This document shows positions 3,242-61,818 of a stretch of 64,000 nucleotides of DNA, one piece after another. The stretch is from Serinicoccus chungangensis (lineage in GTDB: Bacteria; Actinomycetota; Actinomycetes; Actinomycetales; Dermatophilaceae), in contig NZ_LQBL01000003.1 of NCBI RefSeq assembly GCF_001483745.1, positions 1,425 through 65,424 of the forward strand, in the 5' to 3' direction. Each line of letters begins with the position of its first letter. Positions within the stretch are counted from its first letter, which is position 1. The notes below the pieces were generated by a model. That model saw nothing but the letters and a program-made list of their open reading frames with translations, had not been told where the DNA came from and searched no databases. A program made the position numbers and the translations under genes.

Positions 3242-5016
3242 CGCTGCTGCCCTTCGTCGGCGCCGGCGACGTTGTCCGGCCGTGCCTGGCCGTCCCCGAG
3301 CACGGACCGGTCGGCGGTGGGCTGGTGCGGGCTGCCGCCACCCGAGGGGGACTCGACGCCCTCCTGGCGCTGGGGGAAGAGACCCTCGGGTATGCCGCGC
3401 CCGTCCCAGTTGAGCAGGTTGACGCGACCGCGCTTGGCGCCGCCGGAGACCAGGGTTTCCGACTGGGCCCGCTCCTGGAGCATCTTGAGGTTCTCCACCG
3501 CGACCGGGGTGACGGCGCCGCGGCCCGAGCCTTCGCCGAACGGGCCGGAGGAGTCGAGCAGCTCGTCGTCGAAGGAGCTCACGGGGCAGTCGGTGGCCAG
3601 CTCCTCCAGGGCGTGCGCCTGCTCCCCGTGGGCGGTCGGGATGACGTAGCGGTCGCCGTACTTGGCAATCGCCAGGAGGCGGAACATCTCGTACATCTCC
3701 TCCTCCTCCATACCGACGGCCTCGGCGATGTGCGCCTGGGGGTCGCGGCCCAGGTTGATGTCGCGCATGTAGGACCGCATCGCAGCCAGGCGGCGCAGCA
3801 CCTCCTGGACCGGACGGGTGTCGCCGGCGGTGAAGAGGTTGGCGAGGTACTCGACCGGGATGCGCAGCGCGTCGATGGCGGCGAAGAGGTTGTCCTTGTC
3901 CTCGGCGTCGTAACCGGTGTCCTTGATGACATCGACGACCGGCGACAGCGGCGGGATGTACCAGACCATCGGCATCGTGCGGTACTCCGGGTGCAGGGGC
4001 AGCGCGACCTTGTAGTCGGTGATGAGCTTGAGGACGGGGCTCTTCTTGGCCGCCTCGATCCAGTCGCCGGGGATGCCCGCACGCTCGGCCTCGCGCTGGA
4101 CCGCCGGGTCACGGGGGTCGAGGAAGACGCTGCGCTGGGCCTCGTAGAGGTCGTGCTCGTCCTCGACCGCGGCGGCCTCGAGGACCCTGTCGGCGTCGTA
4201 GAGCATGAGGCCGATGTAGCGCAGCCGGCCCACGCAGGTCTCGGCGCACACGGTCGGGATGCCGACCTCCACGCGTGGGTAGCAGAAAGTGCACTTCTCT
4301 GCCTTGCCGGTCTTGTGGTTGAAGTAGACCTTCTTGTAGGGGCAGCCGGTGACGCACATGCGCCAGCCACGGCACCTGTCCTGGTCGACCAGCACGATGC
4401 CGTCCTCCTCGCGCTTGTAGATGGCACCGGAGGGGCAGGAGGCAGCGCAGCTGGGGTTGAGGCAGTGCTCACAGATCCGCGGGAGGTAGAACATGAAGGT
4501 CTGCTCGAACTCGAACTTCACCTTGTCCTCGATGCCTTTGAGCATCGGGTCCGTGGCGGCGTGCTCGGTGGAACCCCCGAGGTCGTCGTCCCAGTTGGCC
4601 GACCACTCGATGTTGATGTGCTTGCCCGAGATGAGCGACTTGGGCCGCGCGACGGGGAAGGTGTCCTGCGCCGGGGCGTTGAGCAGCGTCTCGTAGTCGT
4701 AGGTCCAGGGCTCGTAGTAGTCCTGGATCGAGGGCATCTTGGGGTTGGAGAAGATGTTGAGCATCTTGTTGATGCGTCCGCCGGCGCGCAGCTTGAGCCG
4801 GCCGTTGTCGGCCCGGATCCAGCCGCCCTTCCACTCCTCCTGGTCCTCGTATCCCCGGGGGTAGCCCAGGCCCGGTCGGGTCTCGACGTTGTTGAACCAG
4901 ACGTACTCGGTGCCCTGACGGTTGGTCCACGCCTGCTTGCAGGTGACCGAACAGGTGTGGCACCCGATGCACTTGTCCAGGTTCATGACCATGGCCATCT
5001 GTGCCATGACGCGCAT
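3238..5016 (-). CDS. narH: Respiratory nitrate reductase beta subunit NarH
   Basis: The iron-sulfur electron-transfer subunit. The first ferredoxin-type site is CIGCHTCSVTC, Cys 16 to 26, and further cysteine groups follow at CEHCLNPSCAASC, CRGWRMCVTGC and CTFCYPRVEVGIPTVC. The Trp in CRGWRMC replaces a Cys, as in other NarH proteins where it marks the [3Fe-4S] cluster. At 592 residues it is longer than E. coli NarH (512) because of a C-terminal extension of low conservation rich in Gly, Pro and Asp. A GAGG lies about 12 bases before the chosen ATG; later ATGs would be further away. It lies 43 bp after narG. Confidence 0.96.
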   Translation of the reverse strand: MRVMAQMAMVMNLDKCIGCHTCSVTCKQAWTNRQGTEYVWFNNVETRPGLGYPRGYEDQEEWKGGWIRADNGRLKLRAGGRINKMLNIFSNPKMPSIQDYYEPWTYDYETLLNAPAQDTFPVARPKSLISGKHINIEWSANWDDDLGGSTEHAATDPMLKGIEDKVKFEFEQTFMFYLPRICEHCLNPSCAASCPSGAIYKREEDGIVLVDQDRCRGWRMCVTGCPYKKVYFNHKTGKAEKCTFCYPRVEVGIPTVCAETCVGRLRYIGLMLYDADRVLEAAAVEDEHDLYEAQRSVFLDPRDPAVQREAERAGIPGDWIEAAKKSPVLKLITDYKVALPLHPEYRTMPMVWYIPPLSPVVDVIKDTGYDAEDKDNLFAAIDALRIPVEYLANLFTAGDTRPVQEVLRRLAAMRSYMRDINLGRDPQAHIAEAVGMEEEEMYEMFRLLAIAKYGDRYVIPTAHGEQAHALEELATDCPVSSFDDELLDSSGPFGEGSGRGAVTPVAVENLKMLQERAQSETLVSGGAKRGRVNLLNWDGRGIPEGLFPQRQEGVESPSGGGSPHQPTADRSVLGDGQARPDNVAGADEGQQR

Positions 5017-21901: not shown

Positions 21902-21930
21902 GGCCCGTGCCCTCACCCGCCCCCATCACG

Positions 21931-22020
21931 ACCGAGCGCCGCGAATGGTTGGCCCTCACCCCCACCGAGCGCCGCCCATGGTTGCCCCCACCCCACCGGG
22001 CGCCGCGAATGGTTGCCCAC
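21931..22020 (+). repeat. Three-unit array of the 32-bp intergenic repeat (family A)
   Basis: Three imperfect tandem copies start at 21931, 21962 and 21992. The shared core reads ACCGAGCGCCGCGAATGGTT in the first copy, with substitutions in the others. The spacing is about 30-32 bp. The array fills the gap between convergent otsB and the lacI-type gene. The same family recurs at 30711-30797 (same orientation) and 31951-32102 (opposite orientation). Confidence 0.9.
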
Positions 22021-30573: not shown

Positions 30574-30647
30574 CCCCGCCCGCGACGAGCCGCGCGGGAT
30601 CGTTGCGTAGAGCCGCAGGCATCGTCGCGACCAGCCGCGCGGCATAC

Positions 30648-30683
30648 CGAGGCCGCCTGTCCCACCCGGGGCAGGCGGCCTCG
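30648..30683 (+). terminator. Hairpin terminator downstream of msiK
   Basis: Perfect 12-base arms CGAGGCCGCCTG and CAGGCGGCCTCG, with CCC/GGG able to extend the stem inside. No T-run follows, as is common for high-GC actinobacterial terminators. Confidence 0.75.
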
Positions 30684-30710
30684 CCGCGTCCGCGCGCGCC
30701 CCCTATCTCC

Positions 30711-30797
30711 CACCGAGCGCCGCGAATGGTTGCCCAGGACCCCACCGAGCGCCGCCAGTGGTTGCCCACCACCCCACCGAGCGCCGCGAATGGTTGG
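30711..30797 (+). repeat. Three-unit array of the 32-bp repeat (family A), left of the AbiEi-like gene
   Basis: Three copies begin at 30711, 30742 and 30774, spaced 31-32 bp, each with the core CACCGAGCGCCGC followed by A/T-containing AATGGTTG or AGTGGTTG. Orientation matches the 21931 array and is opposite to the five-unit array on the other side of the AbiEi-like gene. Confidence 0.9.
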
Positions 30798-30892
30798 CGA
30801 CGCTGTCCACATCGTCCGTGGCTGCCCGCACCCGTCCACAGATCGTCGCGCGTCCCTGGCGAACGGAGTGCGGACGCCCTCAACGTGACCGG

Positions 30893-31924
30893 ATGGCGAC
30901 GCTCACCGACCTCCCCCTGACCCCGTTCCGGTATGCCGATGCGCTGGGTCTCGGCCTGTCGCGTCAGCAGCTGCGTCACCTCGTCGGCAGCGGTCGGGTC
31001 GTGCGCCTGCGCCGCGGCTGGTATGCCGCGGCCGGAGTCGCCCTTCCCGACGGGGAGCGCTGGGAGCTCACGCGGCGCCACCACCTGCAACGGCTGGGGG
31101 AGGCCCTGCTCGATCACCCCGGGTGCGTCGCCAGCCATGCGAGCGGAGGGGTGGTGCACGACCTGCCGCTGGTCATCTCCCCGCACGCCGACGTGGAGCT
31201 CGTGCGCGTCGAGGACGCACCGAGCTCGCGGCGGCTCCCTGGCGTGACGATCCACCACACGGACACGATCGACGTCCCCGTCACGACCGTGGACGGGATG
31301 CGCACGACCACGATCGCCCAGACCTGCGCCGACATCCTGCGCACACGACGCCTCCCGCACGCTCTGGCCATGCTCGACGAGGCGGTGCGCGCGTCGACGG
31401 TCACGCCCCGGGAGGTCCGGGCCGTCCTCGACACCCAGCGGCGCTGGGTCGGCCGACCCAGGGCGCTCCAGGTCATCGACCTGCTGGACGGGCGTCGCGA
31501 GAGCTGGGGCGAGGCATACTCCGCCGGCGTCATCCACCTGGCCGAGCTTCCGCAGCCCATCCCCCAGGTCGAGCTGTATGACGAAGAGTTCCGTTTCGTC
31601 GCCCGGCTCGACGGCCTCCTGGACCACGAGCAGGTGGCCACGGAGTGCGACGGTCAGGGCAAGTACCGACTGGGAGCGACGGCGGAGACCGGTGAGCAGG
31701 TGGCCCGGTCGGTCCTCGCGGCCGAGGCGGTTCGCCAAGGACGCATCGAGCGGCTGGGTCTGGAGGTCGCGCGCTGGATGACCGAGGAGGCCATGCACAC
31801 CCCGGAGGTCGTCGCCCAGCGCATCAACGCCGCCCGGTCCCGAGCGCTGTCGCGTCCCTTCACCGGCTGGGTCAGGTGGGAGGGAGAGTTCCGCAGGCTC
31901 CCGCTCCTGCCACGCGCAGAGTGA
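30893..31924 (+). CDS. Orphan AbiEi-like / DUF559-type protein
   Basis: A 343-residue protein of a class common in actinobacteria. The N-terminus is a winged-helix, AbiEi antitoxin-like region (YADALGLGLSRQQLRHLV, RGWYAAAG). The middle resembles the AbiEi domain (VASHASGGVVHDLPL). The C-terminus has a possible endonuclease-like core, RLDGLL...ATECDGQGKY, where related proteins show an Asp then E-x-D-G and Lys. No AbiEii toxin lies next to it. I chose the ATG at 30893; earlier codons would read through the repeat array. Repeat arrays in opposite orientations flank the gene. Function is unknown; DNA binding or cleavage is inferred. Confidence 0.65.
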   Translation: MATLTDLPLTPFRYADALGLGLSRQQLRHLVGSGRVVRLRRGWYAAAGVALPDGERWELTRRHHLQRLGEALLDHPGCVASHASGGVVHDLPLVISPHADVELVRVEDAPSSRRLPGVTIHHTDTIDVPVTTVDGMRTTTIAQTCADILRTRRLPHALAMLDEAVRASTVTPREVRAVLDTQRRWVGRPRALQVIDLLDGRRESWGEAYSAGVIHLAELPQPIPQVELYDEEFRFVARLDGLLDHEQVATECDGQGKYRLGATAETGEQVARSVLAAEAVRQGRIERLGLEVARWMTEEAMHTPEVVAQRINAARSRALSRPFTGWVRWEGEFRRLPLLPRAE

Positions 31925-31950
31925 CGGTGTGCACGGCCTGGAGCGACGTC

Positions 31951-32102
31951 AGCAACCACTCACGACGCCCGGTGGGAACCAGAGCAACCACTCACGACGC
32001 CCGGTGGGAACCAGAGCAACCACTCACGACGCCCGGTGAGGAGGAGAGCAACCACTCACGACGCCCGGTGGGGAGCAGAGCAACCACTCACGGCGCCCGG
32101 TG
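31951..32102 (-). repeat. Five-unit array of the 32-bp repeat (family A), right of the AbiEi-like gene
   Basis: Five copies at an exact 32-bp period, starting at 31951, 31983, 32015, 32047 and 32079. The plus strand reads AGCAACCACTCACGACGCCC, the reverse complement of the core seen in the other two family A arrays. The copies are nearly identical to each other, more so than in the other arrays, suggesting recent expansion. The array ends about 30 bp before the DUF4032 start. Confidence 0.92.
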
Positions 32103-32135: not shown

Positions 32136-33383
32136 ATGCCGCTCGACATCAGCGCCATCAAGCTGGACCCGGCGATGCTCGACCTCCCGTGGGAGGTGCC
32201 GCTCGAGGAGTGGCCGGAGAAGCACCTGGCCGCGCTCCCCCGGGGCATCTCCCGCCACGTGGTGCGCTTCGTGCGGTTCCAGGGGGCGGTCATCGCCATC
32301 AAGGAGATCTCCGAGCCGCTGGCCCGGCGCGAGTTCCAGACCCTGCGCAACCTGCGCCGGCTCGACCTGCCGACCGTCGAGCCGCTGGCCGTCGTGTCCG
32401 GGCGCACCGACGCCGACGGCGAGCCGCTGGACGCCTGCCTCGTCACCCGGCACCTGAAGTTCTCCCTCCCCTACCGCGCGGTCTTCAGCCAGCGGATGCG
32501 CCCCGACACGGCCAGGCGCACCCTCGACGCGCTCGCCGTCCTGCTCGTGCGGCTGCACCTGGCGGGCTGCTTCTGGGGCGACGTCTCCCTGTCCAACACG
32601 CTCTTCCGCCGCGACGCGGGCGACTTCGCGGCCTACCTCGTCGATGCCGAGACCGCCGAGCTGCACCCCCAGCTCTCCCCCGGGCAGCGCGAGCACGACC
32701 TCTTCGTCGCGCACGGCAACATCGCCGGCGAGCTCATGGACCTCGAGGCGGCCGGCGCCCTGGACGAGGGGGAGGACCCCATCGAGATCGCCAACCGCAT
32801 CATGCACCGCTACGACCTGCTGTGGAACGAGCTGACCGGCGAGGAGCGCTTCGAGCGCGGCGACCGCTGGCGGGTGGACGAGCGCATGCGCCGCCTCAAC
32901 AACCTGGGCTTCGACGTCGACGAGCTGGAGATGACCACCGACATCGACGGCGCCTACATCCGCATCCAGCCCAAGGTCGTCGACGCCGGCCACGCCTCGC
33001 GGCGGCTCATGCGCCTGACCGGCCTGGACGTCGAGGAGAACCAGTCGCGCCGGCTGCTCAACGACCTCGACTCCTACCGCGCGGCGACCGACCGGCTCGA
33101 GGACGACGAGGAGCTCGTCGCGCACGACTGGCTGTCCCGGGTCTACGAGCCCGTCACCCGGACGGTGCCGCGCGAGCTGCGCAGCAAGCTGGAGCCGGCC
33201 GAGCTCTTCCACGAGATCCTCGAGCACCGGTGGTACCTCTCCGAGCGGGTCCAGCACGACGTCGACCTCGTGGAGGCCGTGCAGGACTACGTCGCGACGG
33301 TGCTGCCGCAGAAGCCCGACGAGATCTCGATCCTCGGCGTCGACACCGAGGAGATCCCCATCCGGGCCCAGCTCGCGGAGTGA
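32136..33383 (+). CDS. DUF4032 protein with kinase-like (LPS-kinase-type) core
   Basis: A 415-residue cytoplasmic protein of the actinobacterial DUF4032 family. The N-terminal half looks like a small protein/sugar-kinase fold: FQGAVIAIKEISEPLARREF supplies a Lys and Glu, GCFWGDVSLSNTLFRR resembles the catalytic loop with Asp and Asn, and YLVDAETAEL resembles the metal-binding Asp. The C-terminal half is the conserved DUF4032 region (RWRVDERMRRLNNLGFDVDE). Substrate is unknown. The ATG at 32136 is preceded by the last repeat of the family A array and little spacer, so its promoter may overlap the repeats. Confidence 0.8.
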   Translation: MPLDISAIKLDPAMLDLPWEVPLEEWPEKHLAALPRGISRHVVRFVRFQGAVIAIKEISEPLARREFQTLRNLRRLDLPTVEPLAVVSGRTDADGEPLDACLVTRHLKFSLPYRAVFSQRMRPDTARRTLDALAVLLVRLHLAGCFWGDVSLSNTLFRRDAGDFAAYLVDAETAELHPQLSPGQREHDLFVAHGNIAGELMDLEAAGALDEGEDPIEIANRIMHRYDLLWNELTGEERFERGDRWRVDERMRRLNNLGFDVDELEMTTDIDGAYIRIQPKVVDAGHASRRLMRLTGLDVEENQSRRLLNDLDSYRAATDRLEDDEELVAHDWLSRVYEPVTRTVPRELRSKLEPAELFHEILEHRWYLSERVQHDVDLVEAVQDYVATVLPQKPDEISILGVDTEEIPIRAQLAE

Positions 33384-51808: not shown

Positions 51809-52693
51809 GTGCCCGCCCGTCCCGCCCGCCGACCCGTCGGCACCGTGACCCGTGGGACGACCAACCCCAACCGGCTGCGCAAGGTCGACCGGTGGATGGG
51901 GTACGCCCTGGGCGGCCTCCTGCGCGCCGCGCCGGAGCCGCCCGTCGTCGTCGACCTGGGCTTCGGCGCCTCGCCCGTCACGGTGCTGGAGCTGGCGGCG
52001 CGGCTGCGCCAGGTCCGCTCCGACGTGCGGCTGGTCGGGGTGGAGATCGACCCGGAGCGGGTCGAGCGGGGTCGCCCGCTGGCCGACCCTCCGGGGGTGG
52101 ACTTCGCGCTCGGTGGCTTCGAGGTGCCGCTGCCCCGGGCGCTGGGGGCGGACGCGCGACCGACGGTGGTGCGGGCGTTCAACGTGCTGCGCCAGTATGC
52201 CGAGGACGAGGTCGCGCCGGCGTGGGCCCGGGTGACGCAGCGGCTGGCCCCGGGGGGCACGCTCGTGGAGGGCACCTGCGACGAGCTGGGCCGGCTGGCG
52301 AGCTGGGTCGAGGTGCGTCGTGGTCCGGACGGGGGTCCGACGCCGGTGTCCCTGACCCTGTCGCTGCGGCTGGCCGGCCTCGGGTCGCCCTCGGTGGTCG
52401 CCGAGCGGCTGCCCAAGGTGCTCATCCACCGCAACGTCCCCGGCGAGCCGGTCCACGCCTTCCTCGGGGCGCTGGACGCGGCCTGGGACCGGTCGGCGCC
52501 GATGGGCAGCTACGGCGCCCGCCAGCGGTTCGTGGCCACCGCCCGCACCCTGCGCGAGGAGGGTTGGCCGGTGAGCGGCGGGGTCGCCCGCTGGCGCCTG
52601 GGCGAGCTCACCGTCGCCTGGCCCGCCGTCGCCCCCACCTCGACGACCTCCACGACCTCCACGACCTCCGCCCCCGCACCGGACGCGCGCTAG
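51809..52693 (+). CDS. SAM-dependent class I methyltransferase-like protein
   Basis: A 294-residue protein with a Rossmann-type methyltransferase core: VVVDLGFGASPVTVLELA for SAM binding, VGVEIDPERV and RAFNVLRQY. Its C-terminus includes GSYGARQRFVATARTL and a Thr/Ser repeat tail. Substrate unknown. It is divergent from mshA and often found beside it in actinobacteria. The stop codon lies inside the first unit of a 22-bp repeat array, so the last residues (APAPDAR) are repeat-encoded. The start is a GTG. Confidence 0.75.
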   Translation: MPARPARRPVGTVTRGTTNPNRLRKVDRWMGYALGGLLRAAPEPPVVVDLGFGASPVTVLELAARLRQVRSDVRLVGVEIDPERVERGRPLADPPGVDFALGGFEVPLPRALGADARPTVVRAFNVLRQYAEDEVAPAWARVTQRLAPGGTLVEGTCDELGRLASWVEVRRGPDGGPTPVSLTLSLRLAGLGSPSVVAERLPKVLIHRNVPGEPVHAFLGALDAAWDRSAPMGSYGARQRFVATARTLREEGWPVSGGVARWRLGELTVAWPAVAPTSTTSTTSTTSAPAPDAR

Positions 52694-52839
52694 GCATACA
52701 CAGGACGCGTGCCAGGCATACACCGGACGCGCGCTCGGCATACACCGGACGCGTGCTCGGCAGACACCGGACGCGCGCTAGGCATACACAGGACGCGTGC
52801 TCGGCAGACACCGGACGCGTGCTCGGCAGACACCGGACG
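52678..52839 (+). repeat. 22-bp tandem repeat array (family B), upstream of DUF2516
   Basis: Seven full units and a partial eighth at an exact 22-bp period from 52678. Each unit begins AC[C/A]GGACGCG[C/T]GCT and ends in GGCATAC or GGCAGAC. The first unit spans the end of the methyltransferase gene. The same family appears in the opposite orientation at 53245-53340 and twice near 61.6-61.8 kb. Confidence 0.95.
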
Positions 52840-52889
52840 TCGCCCGCCGCCGACAGGCTGCGCCCAGCCAGGCGGCGTAGGGTGGGTCC

Positions 52890-53219
52890 ATGCCAGCCAT
52901 CTACGAGGCACAGAACCTGCTGCAGGTCGTCGTGGGCGTCGCGGTCTTCGGGATGATGCTGTGGGCGCTCATCGACTGCGCCCGCACCCGGGCCGACGCG
53001 TTCGCCGCCGCGGGCAAGCGCACCAAGCAGTTCTGGCTGCTCCTCACCGGCGGCGCGGCGCTCATCGGCTTCATCTTCATGTTCAGCCCGTTCTCGATCT
53101 TCAACGTCATCGCCGTGGTCGCCGCCGCGGTTTACCTGGCGGACGTCCGCCCGGCCGTCAAGTCGGTCCAGGGGCACGGCGGGTCGTCCAGCCACATGGG
53201 TCCCTACGGCCCCTGGTGA
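52890..53219 (+). CDS. DUF2516 small membrane protein
   Basis: A 109-residue protein with three hydrophobic helices (VVVGVAVFGMMLWALIDC, WLLLTGGAALIGFIFMF, IFNVIAVVAAAVYLADVRP) and a Gly/Ser/His tail, matching DUF2516 in length and layout. The function of the family is unknown. Its start is ATG at 52890, 50 bp after a repeat array, and its stop is about 25 bp before the opposing array, so it is the only gene in a repeat-bounded segment. Confidence 0.85.
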   Translation: MPAIYEAQNLLQVVVGVAVFGMMLWALIDCARTRADAFAAAGKRTKQFWLLLTGGAALIGFIFMFSPFSIFNVIAVVAAAVYLADVRPAVKSVQGHGGSSSHMGPYGPW

Positions 53220-53244
53220 CCCCCCCGGTGTCGGGGGTATGCCC

Positions 53245-53340
53245 GGAGTCGCCTGAGCACGCGTCCGGAGTCGCCTGAGCACACGTCCGGTGCGGACTGA
53301 GCACGCGTCCGGTGCGGACTGAGCACGCGTCCGGTGCGGT
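53245..53340 (-). repeat. 22-bp tandem repeat array (family B), downstream of DUF2516, inverted
   Basis: Four units and a partial fifth at a 22-bp period from 53245. The plus strand carries GAGCACGCGTCCGG, the reverse complement of the core in the array on the other side of DUF2516. Units 1-2 and 3-4 form two slightly different pairs (GAGTCGCCT versus GTGCGGACT). It lies between the convergent DUF2516 and dtd genes. Confidence 0.93.
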
Positions 53341-61562: not shown

Positions 61563-61628
61563 GCACCGGACGCGCGCTCCATACGCACCGAACTCGTCGT
61601 CGGAACGCACCGGACGCACGTTGCGGAC
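61563..61628 (+). repeat. Three-unit 22-bp array (family B)
   Basis: Three units at an exact 22-bp period from 61563, each opening GCACCG; units 1 and 3 carry the GGACGC core, while unit 2 is diverged. A partial fourth copy of the core is at 61702-61710. Orientation matches the 52678 array. Confidence 0.88.
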
Positions 61629-61708: not shown

Positions 61709-61818
61709 CGTCTACGACGCGTCCGGTGCGCTCGGAGGACGCGTCCTGTGCACTCCGAAGACACGTCCGGTGCACTCCGAGTACGCGTCCGGTGCGTGCT
61801 GAACACACGTCCGGTGCA
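61709..61818 (-). repeat. Five-unit 22-bp array (family B), inverted
   Basis: Five units at an exact 22-bp period from 61709. The plus strand reads ACGCGTCCGGTGC or ACACGTCCGGTGC in most units, the reverse complement of the units at 61563. The two arrays could fold against one another as a large imperfect hairpin. Confidence 0.9.

Follow-up and report, generated by a model that had tools for sequence, protein, structure and literature searches.

In Serinicoccus chungangensis, a single gene with an AbiEi-like product stands between two arrays of a 32-bp repeat that lie in opposite orientation. The locus raises the question of whether gene and repeats belong together, in the manner of RAYT genes and the REP elements that flank them. 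We analysed this locus within a stretch of 64,000 nucleotides, hereafter the window, which corresponds to G000:C3:1425-65424, where G000 is the window's own genome.

The gene and its flanking arrays

The window contains arrays of two unit families, i.e., the 32-bp unit around the gene (family A) and a 22-bp unit (family B). The features of the locus and the dispersed arrays are as follows.

21930-22015, minus strand: dispersed family A array of three units, between convergent genes
30709-30796, minus strand: left array, family A, three 32-bp units, spacing 32/32, with 22-bp cores at 30711-30732, 30743-30764, and 30775-30796
30803-30811, plus strand: DnaA-box-like motif 1 (CTGTCCACA), a YYRTCCACA motif
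30832-30840, plus strand: DnaA-box-like motif 2 (CCGTCCACA), 29 bp after motif 1
30893-31924, plus strand, ATG at 30893: predicted AbiEi-Vsr-like nuclease gene, 343 aa
30926-31435, plus strand: part matching AbiEi antitoxins, residues 11-180 of the query starting at 30896, whole models matched
31490-31855, plus strand: predicted PD-(D/E)XK / Vsr-like nuclease domain, with residues invariant in 19 homologues
31951-32102, plus strand: right array, family A, five 32-bp units, spacing 32/32/32/32
52677-52839, minus strand: dispersed family B array, left half of the pair around the DUF2516 gene
53243-53334, plus strand: dispersed family B array, right half of the DUF2516 pair
61563-61617, minus strand: dispersed family B array, left half of a second pair
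61716-61818, plus strand: dispersed family B array, right half of the second pair

The sequence-only reading had described three units on the left and five inverted units on the right of one gene, with an exact 32-bp period in the right array. The coordinates (30709-30796 on the minus strand, 31951-32102 on the plus strand) and the measured spacing bear out both points. The gene is also an orphan, as that reading had it: its neighbours encode an ABC-transporter ATPase and, downstream with a frame from window position 32136, a DUF4032 protein, and an AbiEii partner is absent. In the named genome collection the window gene has three near relatives, all from Serinicoccus. A search of the genome for other 32-bp arrays, which the same reading had proposed, was productive. 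The family A pattern (CAACCAYTSRCGRCGCYCGGTG, up to 3 mismatches) gave 178 matches in G000 versus 2 for the reversed pattern, so that the arrays occur far beyond chance, and a further family A array lies in the window itself (21930-22015).

Two other observations concern the window. A different 22-bp unit (CGCGACGAGCCGCGAGGCATCGT) is present in three imperfect copies at 30581-30645, between the ABC transporter gene and a hairpin at 30648-30683. Ordinary genes can also be enclosed by array pairs, as is the DUF2516 gene by the family B pair at 52677-53334.

PADLOC AbiEi models matched residues 11-180 of the encoded protein (E = 1.3e-13). An AlphaFold2 model of the protein had a pLDDT of 88.5, and Foldseek aligned it with AbiEi (6y8q, E = 5.5e-5) and Rv2827c (1zel, E = 6.8e-4), in agreement with the AbiEi-like identity first read from the sequence. 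This part of the protein matches whole AbiEi models and the AbiEi fold, as in the antitoxin of type IV AbiE systems, a DNA-binding protein of two domains; unlike in those systems, no gene for an AbiEii nucleotidyltransferase toxin is adjacent and the protein has an extra, nuclease-like domain at its C-terminus. Structural matches of the latter to nuclease folds were weak and had poor E-values, i.e., 0.21 for the Vsr endonuclease (1vsr, probability 0.87) and 0.36 for the homing endonuclease I-Bth0305I (3r3p, probability 0.57). They are accompanied by the order of the secondary structure elements and by five residues, E206, D239, E250, D252, and K256 (numbering from 30896), that are invariant over 19 homologues. 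Ten distant paralogues, which align with the set of 19 at an hhalign probability of 100, show no variation in the corresponding motif. Unlike in Vsr and I-Bth0305I, the domain is fused to AbiEi, and its residue pattern (E, D, ExDGxxK) probably differs from theirs.

Relatedness to the DUF559 / MTES_1575 proteins is most apparent among the distant paralogues, four of ten of which match Pfam DUF559; the distant paralogue L035 reaches it with 26.3 versus 20.6 bits. In contrast, only two of the 19 close homologues reach these families, one DUF559 and one MTES_1575, both weakly, and the window protein has no match to DUF559. A search of NCBIfam gave no match, and sequence comparison with solved structures yielded no relative of the family at an E-value of 1 or lower. 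Pfam, PADLOC, and Foldseek returned AbiEi and Vsr-like matches instead of a Y1 HUH tyrosine transposase domain, which is absent from the protein. On these models, the protein is an AbiEi fused to a predicted Vsr-like nuclease domain, the Vsr match being the weaker one.

Bracketing and dispersal of the repeats

For each homologous gene we compared the left flank (500 bp, reverse-complemented) with the right flank (600 bp), taking as threshold the 99th percentile of the scores of 384 ordinary genes drawn from three genomes (score >41). Shared inverted flank sequence was present at 35 of the 43 homologues that belong to other genera in the family and order, at 12 of 16 distant paralogues, and at 21 of 24 homologues from the genus. 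The genus set is not independent, as it includes the window gene with its orthologues, seven in all, and four genes of family B. Three of the 384 ordinary genes exceeded the threshold; the ordinary genes replaced a control with mismatched flanks, which was discarded because orthologous loci in opposite orientation match. The misses were L080, L082, and L084 in the genus, L123, L128, L135, L142, L157, L243, L257, and L258 in the other genera, and L034, L160, L161, and L163 among the distant paralogues; at L082 one array lies beyond the flank used, and L243 is close to a contig end. Loci that were partial or cut by contig ends were not scored (L085, L086, L089, L090, L114, L117, L122, L129, L140, L261, and L266), and further homologue matches outside the scored set include three with E < 1e-50, one each in G110, G157, and G179. 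The link between gene and repeats is real and general among the homologues.

The repeats are specific to gene clades. TRF found arrays on both sides of 20 of the 24 full-length close homologues from the genus and on one side of four (L032, L074, L076, and L080), with basic units that are mostly 21-23 or 32-33 bp and differ from clade to clade. The closest paralogue in G000 (41% identity, C22:4075-5058), for example, is flanked by inverted arrays of the unrelated 22-bp unit of family B. Unit similarity correlated with protein identity (Spearman 0.52, 276 pairs), the correlation being non-significant below 50% identity (p = 0.10). Unit lengths shorter than 21 bp also exist, as in the 20-bp arrays on both sides of L260; on one side of a distant paralogue in G009 (L161:798-1100) there are several arrays with 19-bp units. 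At L035, the distant DUF559 paralogue, three 35-bp repeats are located upstream (1176-1280) and a family B array 1.1 kb downstream (3550-3635).

Single palindromes are common in place of arrays in other genera. At 16 of the 43 loci outside the genus, the left and the right flank each contained a hairpin. Inspected by eye, these are nearly always the same palindrome on the two sides and differ between most genes, with L119 and L127 having a palindrome in common. Genus g30 (ten loci) again has inverted arrays, of other units, which stand on both sides in L133, L141, L150, and L152 (33-35 bp; 33 and 44 bp in L133) and on one side in L146 and L149 (32 bp). Since pstB adjoins 22 of the 43 homologues outside the genus, and their palindromes mostly differ, we suggest vertical inheritance at one slot while the repeat changes. 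A conserved outer tag was partly supported only, outer ends being shared as CCCGACTT on both sides in 7 of 43 loci and as ACCGGAC in 4 of 16.

To describe dispersal, matches to three unit families (A, B, and C) were counted per genome, on both strands, in 31 genomes of the genus. Seven genomes carry the A gene at 71% identity or more, and family A is abundant (at least 46 matches) in all seven: G000 (178), G003 (46), G012 (192), G019 (266), G020 (154), G027 (158), and G028 (130). Among genomes lacking the A gene, counts were 119 in G015, 46 in G007, which has a 53% homologue with a related unit at the A locus, 17 in G011, and 14 in G030; the remaining genomes had at most 4 matches, where the reversed pattern gave up to 5. 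Family B was most frequent in the four genomes with B genes, G000 (156), G003 (109), G020 (140), and G028 (88), followed by G027 (22), G007 (15), where a B-like unit accompanies the gene L091, and others with at most 3. Carriers of A and of B are closely related, so these co-occurrence counts are not independent. Family C had 96 matches in G012 and 90 in G011, which hold the C genes L092 and L077, respectively, 8 in G015, and at most 4 in the remaining 28 genomes. In 400-kb samples of two further genomes, the G107 unit gave 20 half-sites in G107 versus 3 in G159; the signal of the G159 unit was weak, with 4 half-sites (two palindromes) in G159 versus 2 in G107.

The repeat families are dispersed in step with their cognate genes, with G015, G007, G011, G030, and G027 as exceptions. 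Together with the general bracketing, the abundance of family A in seven of seven carriers supports the REP/RAYT-like pairing that the sequence-only reading had proposed. Its expectation that arrays would not be common without the gene holds in so far as abundant A arrays track the gene, but not for G007 (53% homologue), G015 (deleted gene), or G011 and G030 (17 and 14 matches). The other refuting case that it named, the gene always being found without arrays, does not apply to most homologues; 11 of 67 in the two nearer tiers fell below the flank threshold.

Upstream motif, dyads, and gene loss

The motif YYRTCCACA was first spotted by eye. Of 77 homologues, 74 have it in the 300 bp upstream of the gene (24/24 in the genus, 36/39 in the family and order, 14/14 distant), versus 12 of 624 ordinary genes, and none of the scored homologues has it in the 300 bp downstream; six loci of ambiguous gene strand were left out of the count. 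A subsequent unbiased count of 8-mers placed TCCACAGG at the top (50/72 homologues versus 5/624 ordinary genes). PMC4285127 gives TTGTCCACA as the DnaA box with high affinity in Streptomyces coelicolor and Mycobacterium tuberculosis. Two exact plus-strand boxes, 27-30 bp apart, precede 19 of 72 homologues. With relaxed boxes, a pair spaced by 28-30 bp was found in 22/39 family and order homologues, 2/14 distant paralogues, and 1/624 controls versus 1/19 in the genus, and the pair is therefore mainly a feature outside the genus. This putative DnaA-box-like motif suggests that expression of the gene may be coupled to replication.

Similar boxes were noticed at two other genes of G000. A 750-aa protein at L173:753-3005 (G000 C3:226177-228429) presumably resembles the DUF222/HNH endonucleases and would be a further orphan nuclease; upstream of its gene lie two YYRTCCACA boxes at a distance of 30 bp. 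A 322-aa gene without a Pfam family, at L168:79-1047 (G000 C3:125503-126471), has palindromes (GGTGGTGCAGGAACGGTGCTGC...) on both flanks and a TCCACAGG box 61 bp upstream, and was alone among 100 ordinary G000 genes in being above the flank threshold and having an upstream box. It may be a further, very distant member; the likeness is suggestive but its relation to either alignment is not significant, and we do not claim membership.

Away from the gene, the units repeat the geometry seen around it. Among pairs of neighbouring arrays of one family within 2 kb, including single units beside an array, the minus-then-plus (head-to-head) order was found in 9 of 11 pairs for family A, 6 of 6 for B (9 of 12 before removal of six self-overlapping palindromic matches), and 12 of 12 for C, i.e., 27 of 29 in total, two of the 27 being the gene's own brackets. 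Three palindromes and two A dyads folded better than shuffled sequences (z = -6.8 to -11.2), in contrast to two tandem A units (z = +1.05). G000 and G003, approximately 90% identical here, differ in the size and presence of their arrays. Copy number changes by whole units: a B array with 3 units in G000 has a single unit in G003, a difference of exactly 44 bp. Other arrays are present in one of the two genomes only, some of them at places where the other strain has diverged sequence, and none of six aligned junctions showed a clean insertion with target duplication.

DNA orthologous to the downstream gene was located in 28 of 31 genomes. The search for empty sites in relatives, which had been put forward as a check, found them: the region upstream of the DUF4032 gene was examined at 19 loci, and at six of these (G011, G018, G021, G026, G029, and G030) the two neighbouring genes are 72-146 bp apart and enclose no gene. 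G015 has no intact A gene; what remains at its A locus is two minus units, a leader that includes a TCCACAG box, a piece of the gene's 3' end, and three plus units. Its arrays are less uniform. In this one lineage, with 30 loci taken by best pattern matches, identity of adjacent A units was 0.796 (n = 30), versus 0.862 in G000 (n = 81, Mann-Whitney p = 4e-4) and 0.906 in G003 (n = 29, p = 2e-5), which fits array decay after loss of the gene.

A REPtron-like reading and its alternatives

We think it probable that gene and repeats are a cognate, co-evolving pair that works in the manner of REP and RAYT, though its enzyme is unrelated. AbiEi antitoxins bind inverted repeats (PMC7319586); here, the AbiEi part would recognise the half-palindrome unit, two head-to-head units would form a palindrome or dyad able to extrude as a hairpin or cruciform, and the predicted Vsr-like nuclease would nick or cut at the dyad. 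Host repair or replication would then multiply the units in tandem and copy dyads to other intergenic sites. The bracketed gene would be the source, and the dispersed minus-plus dyads and arrays its non-autonomous copies. We infer that the protein binds, cleaves, and mobilises the repeats; in parallel with the proposal made for RAYTs, the most likely course would be binding, a cut or nick at the dyad, and repair-driven multiplication and movement of the units.

In RAYT systems, as set out in PMC2817692 and, as a further source, in PMC8266576, two inverted REPs flank the gene, gene and repeats co-evolve, and repeat abundance correlates with the gene. The present family is alike in that the gene lies between two inverted repeats, the repeats are dispersed, their abundance follows the gene, and the two co-evolve; the bracket is often a REP-like palindrome in other genera, while half-palindromes form tandem arrays in Serinicoccus. 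TnpA-REP, the enzyme of the RAYT/REP system (REPtron), is related to the IS200/IS605 transposases and belongs to the HUH superfamily. In contrast, the window enzyme combines AbiEi with a predicted PD-(D/E)XK/Vsr-like domain and has no HUH tyrosine transposase domain. Further differences from RAYT/REP are that the GTAG tag is absent from the A, B, and C units, as read directly, that half-palindromes are multiplied into 22- or 32-bp arrays, and that a DnaA-box-like motif lies upstream. The system is REPtron-like in its working but not a RAYT, because it has the flanking repeats, co-evolution, and gene-correlated abundance of RAYTs but neither their tyrosine transposase nor the GTAG tag.

The protein could instead be a regulator with a large regulon or a nucleoid role, whose binding to the dispersed, phased arrays would organise or insulate the chromosome or terminate transcription, the brackets being autoregulatory and the nuclease fold unused. 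AbiEi proteins are reported to autoregulate through inverted repeats (PMC7319586), and genus units of 21-23 or 32-33 bp approximate two or three helical turns. Moreover, 33 of the 37 family A arrays (at least two units) scored in G000, drawn from the regions around the first 100 of the 178 matches and from contig C3, lie between genes, with 4 inside gene calls. We nevertheless regard this account as unlikely, given that the predicted nuclease residues are invariant in the 19 and ten aligned proteins, that array size and presence differ between G000 and G003, and that the gene is deleted in G015 and absent from the locus in six relatives. An orientation rule, by which arrays lie antisense downstream of genes, was seen for A and B in G000 (20 to 7, in gaps between tandem genes) but was dropped because family C in G011 gave 9 to 7.

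That another enzyme, e.g., a Y1/RAYT transposase, spreads the repeats and the gene is merely a favoured or tolerated neighbour would accord with the location of most A, B, and C matches far from the gene; however, it is quite improbable when the units on both sides of the gene are those of its own clade, high counts of the three scanned units essentially coincide with the matching gene, and ordinary genes are so rarely bracketed (3/384). Least probable is a defence or toxin-antitoxin relic, in which an AbiEi-type protein with a nuclease would be directed at phage or foreign DNA, with the repeats as self-recognition or titration sites: the PADLOC AbiEi models match, but no AbiEii partner lies beside the gene, and the dyads, the dispersal, and the unit-specific co-occurrence would go unexplained.

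Read as a cognate pair, gene and repeats point to a partnership, not described so far, of an enzyme with the repeats on which it acts. Within the part of the open-access literature consulted, we found no tie between AbiEi, DUF559, or Vsr-like genes and such repeats. More tentatively, and as a possibility that we would not yet favour, the large actinobacterial AbiEi-Vsr family may be a second, independently evolved REPtron, in which a PD-(D/E)XK enzyme under DnaA control multiplies its own palindromes during replication and keeps inventing specificities at fixed chromosomal slots.

A repeat-carrying nuclease family would provide a cause for actinobacterial intergenic repeats and a role for orphan AbiEi/DUF559-type genes. 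Its natural series of protein/DNA-site pairs may reveal how binding specificity changes, and the DnaA-box-like motif makes the link with replication directly testable.
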